From positions 4,852,001 to 4,916,000 of the forward strand of contig NZ_AP022848.1 of the NCBI RefSeq assembly GCF_011764485.1: a stretch of 64,000 bases of DNA, in the 5' to 3' direction. Under the pieces are notes generated by a model. That model was not told where the DNA came from, did not search any database, and was given only the letters and a program-made list of their open reading frames with translations. Of the stretch, positions 61,335 through 64,000 are shown piece by piece. A program made the position numbers and the translations under genes. Position 1 is the first letter of the stretch. The number at the start of each line of letters is the position of its first letter. Source of the DNA: Bosea sp. ANAM02. Its GTDB lineage: Bacteria; Pseudomonadota; Alphaproteobacteria; Rhizobiales; Beijerinckiaceae.

Positions 61335-61363
61335 TTGACAAAGAGGACGATCCCGATCAGATT
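61335..61363 (+). promoter_or_regulatory. Candidate promoter for the metNIQ leader
   Basis: TTGACA at 61335 is an exact -35 consensus. It is followed 17 nt later by CAGATT (three of six -10 matches). It would start transcription about 110 nt before the upstream ORF. The only other features in the 61210-61479 gap are a 7-bp hairpin CCACGAC-TGG-GTCGTGG at 61441-61457 and an imperfect inverted repeat around 61308-61330. Confidence 0.4.
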
Positions 61364-61479
61364 GCAGGTGTTCCCGGAGCAATCGGGGAGCCGCGGAGAT
61401 TTGAGCAGCAGCTTGCGCCGCGTCACCAAACGCTAAAGCGCCACGACTGGGTCGTGGGCTCCAGATCGAGGAGACTGAC

Positions 61480-61548
61480 ATGACCATTGTGAAAGCCAGC
61501 CGAAGCCAATCCTGCTTCCGCCTGATGTCCTGCCGCTGTCGACGCTGA
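61480..61548 (+). CDS. 22-residue Cys/Arg-rich leader peptide (uORF)
   Basis: ATG at 61480 is preceded by GAGGAG with a 6-nt spacer, better than many full genes here. The 22 codons end FRLMSCRCRR before a TGA, giving Cys at 12, 18 and 20 and an Arg cluster. Short Cys/Arg leader peptides are known before sulfur-uptake genes in actinobacteria. The location 73 nt before a small ORF and the methionine transporter fits a translation-sensing leader. It is unlikely to have a function as a free peptide. Confidence 0.65.
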   Translation: MTIVKASRSQSCFRLMSCRCRR

Positions 61549-61609
61549 GATCGCGAGGCCGAGAGGCCTTTCCCATCCGATCGTTCCGACACGTGCCGCA
61601 TCGACGGCA
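61531..61609 (+). promoter_or_regulatory. Putative cysteine-responsive leader RNA switch
   Basis: Three structures can be drawn after the uORF. A stem GATCG/CGATC (61549-61553 with 61578-61582) encloses AGGCC-GAGA-GGCCT (61556-61569). A 5-bp stem TGCCG/CGGCA (61594-61609) abuts the ribosome-binding site of the next ORF. Alternatively, TGCCG-ctg-TCGA inside the uORF (61531-61542, covering the last two Cys codons) can pair with TCGACGGCA at 61601-61609. The last two are mutually exclusive, so a ribosome stalled on Cys codons would change the structure. Confidence 0.5.
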
Positions 61610-61621
61610 GAAGGCAGTTCC

Positions 61622-61870
61622 ATGTCCCAGCTTCATTCCCTTCCCGCCCGGGCCCGCCCGGCGCAGCAGGCCTATGTCATCGAGCTCGGCGAGGCCCAGA
61701 TCGGGCTCGTGAGCCGCCGCGCCGACGAGCGCGACTTCACATTCGTCTCGGCTTCCGCCGCCTTCCGGGCGCTGGACGGGCAGCGCTTCGCAACGCCCGG
61801 CGCTGCCGAGACCGCCGCGCGCCGGCTCTTCCGCTCGCAGCGGCGCGCGCCGCTGCTGCTGGCTTCGTGA
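61622..61870 (+). CDS. Small hypothetical protein upstream of metN
   Basis: 82 residues. It has the pattern YVIELGEAQIGLVSRRADERDFTFVSASAAFRALDGQRFATPGAAETAARRL, an alpha/beta mini-domain with Arg-rich surfaces and no membrane segment. AAGGCAG precedes the ATG. It is the first gene after the leader switch and lies in the same direction as metNIQ with only short gaps, so it is probably cotranscribed. Function not recognised. Confidence 0.6.
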   Translation: MSQLHSLPARARPAQQAYVIELGEAQIGLVSRRADERDFTFVSASAAFRALDGQRFATPGAAETAARRLFRSQRRAPLLLAS

Positions 61871-61877
61871 GGCGGCG

Positions 61878-62051
61878 ATGCAGCTCCTCTCCACCCTCTG
61901 GAACGGTCTCGCGGCGTGGTTCGTCCAGGCCGTCCCCGCCAGTTTCGACCCGCTCGACGCCGCGACCGCGGACGACCAGCGCCGCTCGGTCCATGACGTG
62001 ACCATCGAGCAGCTCGGCATCGCCCACTGGTCCTGCCACACGCATTTCTGA
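61878..62051 (+). CDS. 57-residue hypothetical protein between the leader and metN
   Basis: Starts MQLLSTLWNGLAAWFVQAVP, an amphipathic or membrane-skimming helix. An acidic middle (DPLDAATADDQRR) follows, then the tail HWSCHTHF, with one Cys and three His. It begins 7 nt after the preceding stop and ends 4 nt before metN, so it is almost certainly cotranslated with the transporter operon. Too short for confident assignment; the CHTH tail could bind a metal or thiol ligand (speculation). Confidence 0.5.
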   Translation: MQLLSTLWNGLAAWFVQAVPASFDPLDAATADDQRRSVHDVTIEQLGIAHWSCHTHF

Positions 62052-62055
62052 GGAC

Positions 62056-63177
62056 ATGATGAACGCCCCCGTCAGACCCGGCACGCTCGGTGCCGGCGCG
62101 ACTTCCGTCGCCTTGCCCCTATCGTCGCCCGAGACGGCCATCCGCTTCGAGCGGGTCGGCAAGACCTATCCGGGCCGCCGCGGCCAGTTGCCGGTCGGCG
62201 CGCTCGCCGGAATCGATCTCGACGTCCCCGCCGGCACGATCCTCGGCGTGATCGGTCGCTCGGGCGCCGGCAAGTCCACCCTGATTCGCCTCGTCAACGG
62301 GCTGGAATGCGCCACCGAGGGGCGCATCCTGATCGAAGGCACCGATGTCACGGGTCTCACCGAATCCGGCTGGCGCCAGCAGCGCCGGCGGATCGGCATG
62401 ATCTTCCAGCATTTCAACCTGCTCTCGTCGCGCACGGTCTTCGACAATGTCGCGCTGCCGCTGGAGATCGCCGGCGCCGGTAAGGCCGAGATCGCCGCGA
62501 AGGTGGCGCGGCTGCTCGCGCTGGTCGGGCTCTCCGACAAGAGCGCGCGCTATCCGGCCGAGTTGTCGGGCGGGCAGAAGCAGCGCGTCGGCATCGCCCG
62601 TGCGCTCGCCACCGATCCGAAGGTGCTGCTCTGCGACGAGGCGACCTCGGCGCTCGATCCCGAGACGACGCGCTCGATCCTCGCCCTGCTCCGCCAAGTC
62701 AATCGCGAGCTCGGCATCACCATCCTGCTGATCACCCACGAGATCCCCGTCATCAAGGAGATCTGCGACCGCGTCGCGGTGATCGAGGGCGGGCGGATCG
62801 TCGAGCAGGGCGAGACCTTCGAAGTCTTCACCAACCCGCAGCACCCGACCACGGCGAGCTTCGTCGAGACGGTCACCGGCGTCGAACTGCCGGAACATCT
62901 CACTCACCGCATCCGCAAGGACGCGCGTCCCGGCGACAATATCGTGCTGCGCATCACCTTCCTCGGCGAGAACGCGACGGCGCCGGTGATCAGCCGGCTC
63001 AGCGCCATCGTCGGCGTCGACGTCAACATCCTGGCCGGGCGGATCGACGCCATCGCCGGCCAACCCTTCGGCAGCCTGCTCGTCTGCGTGCCCGCGCGCG
63101 CGCCGGAGAGCGATGCCGTGCTCGGCGCCCTCAGGAACCTCGGGCTCAAGGCGGAGGTGATCGGCCATGTCTCCTGA
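62056..63177 (+). CDS. metN: Methionine ABC transporter ATP-binding protein MetN
   Basis: 373 residues. The ATPase has Walker A GRSGAGKSTL, the signature LSGGQKQRVGIARALA, and Walker B VLLCDEATSALD. The C-terminal 90 residues are the NIL/ACT-like regulatory domain (LRITFLGENATAPVISRLSAIVGVDVNILAGRID), which senses methionine and inhibits transport. The start may be the second ATG (62059). It overlaps metI by 11 nt. It powers uptake of methionine or related sulfur amino acids. Confidence 0.94.
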   Translation: MMNAPVRPGTLGAGATSVALPLSSPETAIRFERVGKTYPGRRGQLPVGALAGIDLDVPAGTILGVIGRSGAGKSTLIRLVNGLECATEGRILIEGTDVTGLTESGWRQQRRRIGMIFQHFNLLSSRTVFDNVALPLEIAGAGKAEIAAKVARLLALVGLSDKSARYPAELSGGQKQRVGIARALATDPKVLLCDEATSALDPETTRSILALLRQVNRELGITILLITHEIPVIKEICDRVAVIEGGRIVEQGETFEVFTNPQHPTTASFVETVTGVELPEHLTHRIRKDARPGDNIVLRITFLGENATAPVISRLSAIVGVDVNILAGRIDAIAGQPFGSLLVCVPARAPESDAVLGALRNLGLKAEVIGHVS

Positions 63178-63832
63178 GATCATCCGCCTGATCGCGCAGT
63201 CGACGCTGGACACGCTCGCCATGGTCGCGGTCGCAGCCGGGCTCGGCACGCTGTTCGGCCTGCCGCTCGGCGTCTTCCTCGCCACCAGCAAGCGCGGCGA
63301 ACTCTTCGCGGCGCCGGCCGCCAACCTTCTGCTGGGCACGCTGGTCAACGCCACGCGCTCGACGCCCTTCATCATCCTCGTCGTCGCGATCATCCCGTTC
63401 ACACGGCTGATCGCCGGCACCTCGATCGGCACCGGTGCCGCGATCGTGCCGCTCACCGTCGCGGCGACGCCCTTCATCGCCCGCCTGATCGAAGGCGCGG
63501 TGCGCGAGGTCGACCAGGGGCTGGTCGAGGCCGCGCGCGCCATGGGCGCCACACCCGTCCAGATCGTGCGCAAGGTGCTGGTGCCCGAGGCCCTGCCGGC
63601 GATCGTGCTCGGCCTGACGCTGGCGCTGGTCAGCCTGATCGGCTTCTCGGCCATGGTCGGCGCGGTCGGCGGCGGCGGGCTCGGCGATCTCGGCATCCGC
63701 TACGGCTACCAGCGCTTCATGCCGGACGTGATGGCGGCGGTCGTCGCCGTGCTCATCGTCCTCGTCCAGCTCGTCCAGAGCATCGGCGACCGGCTCGCCC
63801 GCCATCTCAACAAGCGCCTGCGCCACGCCTGA
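63167..63832 (+). CDS. metI: Methionine ABC transporter permease MetI
   Basis: 221 residues with five helices. The binding-protein-dependent transport motif lies in the cytoplasmic loop EAARAMGATPVQIVRKVLVPEALPAIVLG. The first helix follows MSPEIIRLIAQSTLDTLAMV, and NATRSTPFIILVVAIIPF is typical of MetI. It pairs with MetN as a dimer in the inner membrane. Confidence 0.95.
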   Translation: MSPEIIRLIAQSTLDTLAMVAVAAGLGTLFGLPLGVFLATSKRGELFAAPAANLLLGTLVNATRSTPFIILVVAIIPFTRLIAGTSIGTGAAIVPLTVAATPFIARLIEGAVREVDQGLVEAARAMGATPVQIVRKVLVPEALPAIVLGLTLALVSLIGFSAMVGAVGGGGLGDLGIRYGYQRFMPDVMAAVVAVLIVLVQLVQSIGDRLARHLNKRLRHA

Positions 63833-63873: not shown

Positions 63874-64000
63874 ATGACGACCCTCATCAACCGCCGCGCC
63901 GCGCTGCTCGCCGGCTTCACCCTGACGCTCTCCGCCGTGCCCGCCCTTGCCCAGCAGAACCAGGTGGTCCGCATCGGCGTCTCGCCCGGCCCGCATGCCG
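63874..64000 (+). CDS. metQ: MetQ/NlpA-family substrate-binding protein, partial
   Basis: The first 42 residues are present before the window ends. A signal peptide (NRRAALLAGFTLTLSAVPALAQQ) is followed by VVRIGVSPGPHA, the first strand and ligand loop of MetQ/NlpA proteins. AAGGAAA lies 9 nt before the ATG. It would deliver methionine or its oxidised or D-forms to MetNI. Confidence 0.85.
   Translation, partial: MTTLINRRAALLAGFTLTLSAVPALAQQNQVVRIGVSPGPHA

Follow-up and report, generated by a model that had tools for sequence, protein, structure and literature searches.

A SAM-II-type aptamer and a cysteine-codon leader ORF in front of the Bosea metNIQ operon: a candidate serial two-input leader

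Genes and leader elements of the metNIQ locus

The window, that is, the whole 64,000-nucleotide stretch of Bosea sp. ANAM02 DNA that was analysed, ends within an operon whose order in the ORF list is orf82, orf57, metN, metI and probable metQ; all features described here lie on the forward strand. The metN gene (62056..63177) encodes a methionine ABC transporter ATPase with a NIL domain, matching TIGR02314 at 394 bits, short of its equivalog cut-off (499.7), and PF09383, the NIL domain, at 65.5 bits, and metI (63167..63832) encodes a permease that matches NF008049 at 237.9 bits, above the cut-off of 212. The probable metQ is cut by the window end, and its 5' part (63874..64000) was called by position; the family search gave no match for this fragment. 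The original prediction placed a cysteine-responsive leader in front of metNIQ. The operon does lie downstream, but the next ATG (61622) is that of orf82 rather than of metN, and two small ORFs of 82 and 57 aa intervene before metN: orf82 (61622..61870), the first gene of the operon, and orf57 (61878..62051), both devoid of Pfam or NCBIfam matches. Small ORFs with an orf82-like stretch (..VIEIGEVTAGIAVP..) occupy the same place in another genus.

Upstream of orf82 we found the predicted leader ORF (uORF) exactly as described: a 22-codon ATG ORF (61480..61548) encoding the peptide MTIVKASRSQSCFRLMSCRCRR, preceded by a GAGGAG Shine-Dalgarno (SD) sequence at 61468..61473, with an SD-like site present in relatives as well, and with 73 nt between its stop and the orf82 ATG. 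Its Cys codons start at 61513, 61531 and 61537, and the last two belong to a conserved ORF end, TGC CGC TGT CGA CGC TGA (C-R-C-R-R-stop; 61531..61548).

The prediction had overlooked a further element, a SAM-II-type riboswitch aptamer (61383..61456) that ends 23 nt before the leader-ORF ATG. With cmscan it matches SAM_alpha (RF00521) at 22.8 bits (E 0.0044 in 401 nt), and as the Rfam gathering score of 36 is not reached, we name the element SAM-II-type and not a certified RF00521 member. An RF00521 search of 14 control genomes with E up to 1 produced matches in 10 of them, none above the cut-off, so that the Rfam score by itself proves nothing. The assignment rests instead on position and on the conserved core, which a sequence expression recovered together with both strands of the aptamer P1 stem in 58/58 Bosea leaders. 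The gene association is that of a methionine and sulfur riboswitch, with metN and metI in the window and ssuA, tauA, msuE, metQ and sufS at five other loci. On this basis the aptamer is very probably of the SAM-II type. This subtype is easily missed: when ten other loci were compared with RF00521, four scored 27.5-29.5 bits and six gave no match at E 0.5, so that the 11 loci tested range from 22.8 to 29.5 bits or no match against a threshold of 36. Just upstream of the aptamer lies a candidate promoter, TTGACA-17 nt-CAGATT (61335..61363); inspection by eye shows TTGACA and a box similar to CAGATTG in many Bosea leaders, and we grade the promoter weak because a consensus promoter scan listed none.

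The short segment between the aptamer and the leader-ORF SD suggests how the two elements may be coupled. A hairpin, CCACGAC-TGG-GTCGTGG (61441..61457), stands between the aptamer core and the leader ORF, and its 5' arm CCACG immediately follows the aptamer in 54/58 Bosea leaders. Next comes GCTCC (61458..61462), a putative anti-Shine-Dalgarno sequence of the leader ORF that is complementary to GGAG at 61470-61473; a GGCTC motif occurs between aptamer and SD in 53/58 leaders. Four leaders (L033, L037, L060 and L061) carry neither the CCACG hairpin nor GGCTC, and there the SD immediately adjoins the tail of the aptamer (GCTAAAGCGGAG...ATG), with 11 nt from GCTAAAG to the leader-ORF ATG. These hairpin-less leaders resemble the arrangement of S. 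meliloti metA, where, in the accessible part of the report, SAM binding is said to hide the SD (PMC9373788). A 5' GGAGCC segment that could act in anti-anti-SD pairing is visible in the window and was discarded, being invisible in many other Bosea leaders. Judged from the position of the aptamer relative to the SD, the riboswitch probably controls initiation at the leader ORF.

Conservation of the leader ORF and its linkage to the aptamer

A search with orf82 gave 60 matches in Bosea, from which the best per genome was kept, setting aside two weak second ones; this resulted in 58 leaders, one from each of the 58 among 67 genomes of the genus that have an orf82 match, and all leader counts refer to these. 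Records named Bosea robiniae, B. thiooxidans and B. vaviloviae, among others, likewise contain orf82 loci. A metN match lies downstream in the fetched stretch at 57/58 leaders, the exception being L016. The expectation that relatives would share the uORF and its Cys codons held throughout: an ATG ORF with an SD-like site is present in 58/58 leaders by a loose rule (L062 fails a stricter SD rule), and all 58 encode at least one Cys in the last eight residues, with at least two in 56/58 (one Cys in 2 leaders, two in 26, three in 26 and four in 4). The ORF is 19-26 codons long, in frame in every case and 22 codons long in 45/58, and its stop precedes the orf82 ATG by 69-102 nt in the 57 leaders with an assigned ATG (L020, which has none, was left out of this spacing count, of both alignments and of the co-variation and stall tests described below).

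The pattern of variation within the ORF is uneven. Among 15 close relatives, positions 1, 2 and 3 of codons 2-17 vary at 10, 10 and 11 of the 16 codons, respectively, and such equal variation indicates that the front of the peptide is not under selection. The end behaves differently also at the nucleotide level, as the last Cys codon is TGT in 58/58 leaders, compared to 15 of 130 Cys codons in gene proxies from the window; the following codon is CGA in 44/58, compared to 72 of 1377 Arg codons in the same proxies; and the stop is TGA in 58/58. A preserved frame and end combined with a free front argue that the ORF is translated and that the end of its product is what counts; it is thus almost certainly a conserved, translated element. 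The conservation of the end as nucleotides suggests possible selection on RNA structure or codon identity besides the amino acids. The motif does not appear to mark a wider regulon in Bosea, since none of 12 other CxCRR-pattern sites, among the matches listed, is an SD-led ORF.

To place the Bosea leaders in a broader setting, we surveyed aptamers in the family and the order. A general SAM-II pattern occurs in 162/397 genomes of the family, representing 20/43 genera, and 40 non-Bosea loci were taken from the matches listed. A pattern for the aptamer subtype occurs in 27/249 genomes of the order, compared to no matches with the backward control pattern, and gave 24 loci outside the family, spread over nine other families. 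Linkage was scored with an automatic rule that calls a short SD-led ORF after the aptamer with at least one Cys in the last eight residues; owing to position and SD filters stricter than the leader-by-leader derivation, this rule recovers 53/58 of the Bosea uORFs. In other genera of the family such an ORF follows 35/37 aptamers among the matches listed (shuffle mean 0.9, maximum 3), a count that includes ORFs unconvincing by eye (L124 at least). In other families it follows 23 of the 24 loci (shuffle mean 1.0, maximum 4). The leader at L184 carries the aptamer subtype but no such ORF. At least two Cys in the last ten residues were found at 24/37 loci in other genera, among the matches listed, and at 13/24 in other families, with shuffle means of 0.2. 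Among 21 control loci with ssu-type or metA-type SAM-II elements, only 2 showed at least one Cys (shuffle mean 0.4, maximum 3) and none had two or more in the last ten, and within Bosea the Cys uORF follows 14/14 metN-type aptamers as compared to 1/18 ssu-type ones. With Cys-ending ORFs far more frequent than in the shuffles, we rejected a chance uORF. As the loci are not phylogenetically independent, families are a better unit than locus counts, and by this measure the ORF is present in eight of the nine families outside that of the host.

The linked peptides share little besides their Cys residues, ending elsewhere in CCCP, LCCW, ACCRS, CLCRRAS, CCGCCCC, RCCPCCC, CCCSCCR, CRCRRNSR, SRCRC or GRCRP. 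Downstream, NCBIfam matches above cut-off identify an SsuA-family protein (L125), a taurine-binding protein (L127), an MsuE-type FMN reductase (L133), a MetQ/NlpA-family protein (L135) and a SufS-family cysteine desulfurase (L189), and by eye MetN-like genes lie at L131, L139-L141, L194, L206 and L211 and a MetQ-like gene at L191.

Predicted pairing between the end of the leader ORF and the orf82 start region

The original prediction envisaged the segment with the last Cys codons pairing with 61601-61609 just upstream of the orf82 SD. This complementarity is present in the ensemble computed for the window, where 61535-61542 pairs with 61601-61608 at p 0.76, yet it is confined to the window and not conserved: in the closest relatives the partner of TGTCG(A) is CGACA or TCGACG, which lies upstream of that arm by about 15 nt, and we therefore dropped 61601-61609 as the conserved partner. 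The local alternative, TGCCG (61594-61598) with CGGCA (61605-61609), can form as claimed. In the two leader alignments this hairpin next to the orf82 SD (61594..61609) takes the form GCCGC/GCGGC in most relatives, and it is uninformative for co-variation because it is nearly invariant.

Folding of many individual Bosea leaders suggests two long-range helices instead. In the first, termed P1, the Cys codons pair with the spacer between the SD and ATG of orf82 (CTGCC/GGCAG, CTGCT/AGCAG or GCTGT/GCAGC); in the window its predicted 5' strand is CTGCC at the first C-terminal Cys codon (61530..61534) and its 3' strand GGCAG (61613..61617), paired in the ensemble at p 0.98. Other Bosea leaders, such as the L036 group, lack P1. 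In the second, P2, the last Cys codon, Arg codon and stop pair with a segment that lies some 30-50 nt ahead of the orf82 ATG, with the variants TGTCG/CGACA, TTGTCGA/TCGACAA, TCGAATG/CATTCGA and TCTGA/TCAGA; by homology with relatives its strands in the window are TGTCG at the last Cys codon (61537..61541) and CGACA (61587..61591). The GCCGC/GCGGC hairpin stands between the helices in many of these single-sequence folds, and the window ensemble also contains a middle hairpin, GAGGCC-GAGA-GGCCTT (61555..61570), at p 0.94. For P2 the window's own ensemble is less favourable, as it prefers 61535-61542 with 61601-61608 and keeps P2 at or below p 0.25. The overall stability of the window fold is not unusual compared to chance (z -0.17 for 161 nt, -1.18 for 97 nt).

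Co-variation was assessed by comparing own with cross-locus pairing among 19 sequence clusters, over 117 window pairs and in five draws. P2 ranked first among the 117 in every draw (z -3.5 to -3.9; family-wise p 0.0085, 0.010, 0.0175, 0.024 and 0.0435), the partner of the last Cys codon, Arg codon and stop being the segment from -42 to -27 of orf82, and a separate fixed-window test gave p 0.004 for P2. Of the windows that cover the orf82 start, several score between z -2 and -3.3, and others in that column fall short of this. Compensatory changes in the arms named by the prediction were thus not borne out, and a neighbouring segment pair co-varies instead. Taken together, the P2 helix has moderate support across Bosea. 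No co-variation of P1 was detected in the fixed-window test (p about 0.5), and other tests of it are suggestive only. RNAalifold on 19 close relatives kept P1, with 2/17 pairs changed on both sides, and did not retain P2; on a gappy MAFFT alignment of 57 leaders it returned no pairs. Complementarity of the uORF end at each locus was no greater than with shuffled downstream DNA in three data sets (mean z -0.10, 0.00 and -0.12). A simulated stalled-ribosome mask lowered the cost of opening the orf82 start from 10.98 to 9.64 kcal/mol (p 0.009), but performed no better than a control mask (10.03 kcal/mol, p 0.002; stalled versus control p 0.26). Because the tests of P1, complementarity, RNAalifold consensus and stall mask were null in this sense, we infer the switch itself from the helices rather than presenting it as computed.

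A possible serial gate and alternative readings

In order to rationalise the succession of aptamer, Cys-codon ORF and predicted pairing, we propose a serial two-input leader in which SAM gates the loading of ribosomes on a Cys-codon attenuator, a combined statement to which we assign a probability of about 0.6. SAM bound to the SAM-II-type aptamer would close the ribosome-binding site of the leader ORF and leave the ORF untranslated, and at low SAM ribosomes would load on it. If charged tRNA-Cys is then scarce, the ribosome would stall on the Cys codons near the stop. In a ribosome-free leader, P2 (through 61587-61591), P1 (through the SD-ATG spacer) and the hairpin at 61594-61609 would keep the orf82 start closed. 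Stalling would place the ribosome over the 5' strands of P1 and P2, the orf82 start would open, and translation of orf82 would turn on metNIQ via the closely spaced ORFs. The individual parts of this proposal differ in strength. Sensing of Cys-tRNA by the leader ORF is likely, whereas the sign described here (on when SAM and Cys are both low) and the translational output we regard as evenly poised. The original idea of a cysteine sensor for methionine uptake accordingly survives as the likeliest reading of the conserved uORF and its Cys codons, but as a second input behind a SAM-II-type riboswitch and not as the sole one.

Both halves of the proposed leader belong to known kinds. As far as the accessible part of its description goes, SAM-II (the metA motif, RF00521; Corbino 2005, PMC1273637) shares with the Bosea aptamer the core GATTTG...GCTTGC...GCTAAAG, the P1 stem, an alphaproteobacterial host, sulfur genes downstream and a candidate promoter just upstream; it differs in that the subtype here is sub-threshold and the first start after the aptamer is that of a Cys leader ORF instead of a metabolic gene. 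In the S. meliloti metA leader (Scheuer 2022, PMC9373788, accessible text), too, a riboswitch controls an SD and AUG1, and the start in use lies 74 nt downstream, but its AUG1 is in frame with metA, whereas in Bosea AUG1 opens a separate Cys-ending ORF; the word cysteine is absent from the portion of that text available. Actinobacterial Cys leaders, in the available portion of PMC1262725, resemble the Bosea ORF as short ORFs with Cys codons near the stop, before sulfur genes and with no obvious terminator, and that portion describes no riboswitch with them. The uORFC-8-2 motif before cysS in Rhodobacterales is an alphaproteobacterial uORF with conserved Cys codons and a proposed Cys-tRNA attenuator as well; unlike the Bosea leader it ends in an intrinsic terminator and controls cysS, and SAM-II is not mentioned with it in the part of PMC8632094 at hand. 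The combination of SAM-II and a Cys leader peptide was not found in the open-access literature, which mostly leaves aside subscription papers, and the parts are known separately; the same negative covers the accessible sections of PMC6429828, PMC10117765 and PMC12218461. In the sequences themselves, the aptamer, the ORF and its Cys codons are conserved, and they occur linked across genera and families.

Mycobacterial Cys leader peptides are reportedly leaderless, going by the title of a 2020 paper by Canestrari, and differ in this from the Bosea ORF. Another parallel for two sensors in one 5' leader is the mgtA leader of Salmonella and E. coli, which joins a Mg2+-responsive leader to the proline-codon ORF mgtL; an RNA sensor and a codon-sensing ORF are common to it and the Bosea leader, and the signals and the RNA differ.

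The output of such a leader could also be transcriptional, with the same two sensors acting through Rho in Bosea or through an intrinsic terminator in some lineages. Termination would then fall before the operon when the uORF is untranslated or after its normal stop, and a stalled ribosome would block it. Terminator-like hairpins with T runs do follow the uORF at 7/60 non-Bosea loci with a placed uORF, among the matches listed (the automatic placement is doubtful at L136 and L160), the best at L201 (-20.4 kcal/mol, TTTTT) and weaker ones at L134, L137, L197, L199, L200 and L207, and at those seven loci the order of uORF and hairpin means that the output may indeed be transcriptional. The weak outcome of the P1/P2 switch tests points in the same direction, as does the Rho-dependent control suggested for mycobacterial Cys leaders in the accessible text of PMC1262725. 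Set against this, 53 of the 60 loci, again among the matches listed, have no terminator-like site, and none was detected between 61200 and 62100 of the window, which makes transcriptional output possible but doubtful as the general explanation.

The nature of the signal read by the uORF is a separate question. Its C-R-R-stop end could cause a nascent-peptide or slow-codon arrest, with CGA and TGT as rare codons, or the Cys residues could sense metal or thiol stress, for which CruR, a uORF that senses copper through Cys residues, is a precedent (PMC9426467, from the accessible text). The TGT-CGA-CGC-TGA end is conserved as nucleotides and the Arg codons are conserved too, and a single Cys near the stop, kept in 2/58 Bosea leaders and in several leaders elsewhere, would make a thin sensor of Cys-tRNA. 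However, the ends CCCP, LCCW, CCGCCCC, RCCPCCC and CCCSCCR of other lineages share no common peptide; what they have in common is Cys near the stop, and the genes linked to them serve sulfur acquisition or handling, so that we consider arrest or metal sensing improbable. It is more improbable still, indeed hardly credible, that the uORF is a passive companion with incidental Cys codons, and that ribosomes use the riboswitch SD for stand-by or coupling to reach the remote orf82 start. The SAM-II-controlled SD of S. meliloti metA does act on a start 74 nt downstream (PMC9373788, in the text available), and the 69-102 nt between uORF stop and orf82 ATG in the 57 Bosea leaders are comparable with such an arrangement, but a passive ORF would not be expected to keep Cys near its stop while the rest of the peptide drifts, nor to end in Cys far more often than shuffled sequences in three data sets.

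If the serial two-input reading is correct, the riboswitch would directly target the start codon of a leader peptide that senses an amino acid. One RNA and one ribosome would then form a naturally occurring serial logic gate, in which SAM shortage would be the licence for reading the Cys signal. SAM and Cys, which stand at opposite ends of sulfur amino acid metabolism, would be linked at the uptake step, and the small Cys-ending ORF behind this SAM-II subtype in Hyphomicrobiales would be explained. The reading may extend to an order-wide class: in Hyphomicrobiales, initiation at a Cys leader peptide would be under a SAM-II-type riboswitch, and sulfur operons (metNIQ, ssu, tau, msuE, suf) would need low levels of both signals to open. 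We give this extension even odds. Many lineages carry the pair, making the gate testable in ordinary soil bacteria.

Some further SAM-II-type loci deserve mention in their own right. The Bosea sp. ANAM02 genome holds two more SAM-II-type matches (L001 and L002; 33.7 and 29.2 bits, both below the cut-off; 4177019-4179940), which directly precede genes resembling by eye a binding protein of the sulfonate type and an ABC ATPase and carry no Cys uORF. A fourth SAM_alpha match in this genome (L004, 18 bits) sits among long open frames and was rejected as a probable false positive. At L124, in another genus, a 182-aa protein ORF, flavin-reductase-like by eye, begins at the uORF position after the aptamer, which offers a naturally occurring test case for the target of the riboswitch. 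At L189, in another family, a Cys-rich uORF (..MRCCPCCC) stands before the SufS-family cysteine desulfurase gene, whose best NCBIfam match is the encapsulin-cargo cysteine desulfurase model, at 781 of 800 bits just under its cut-off.
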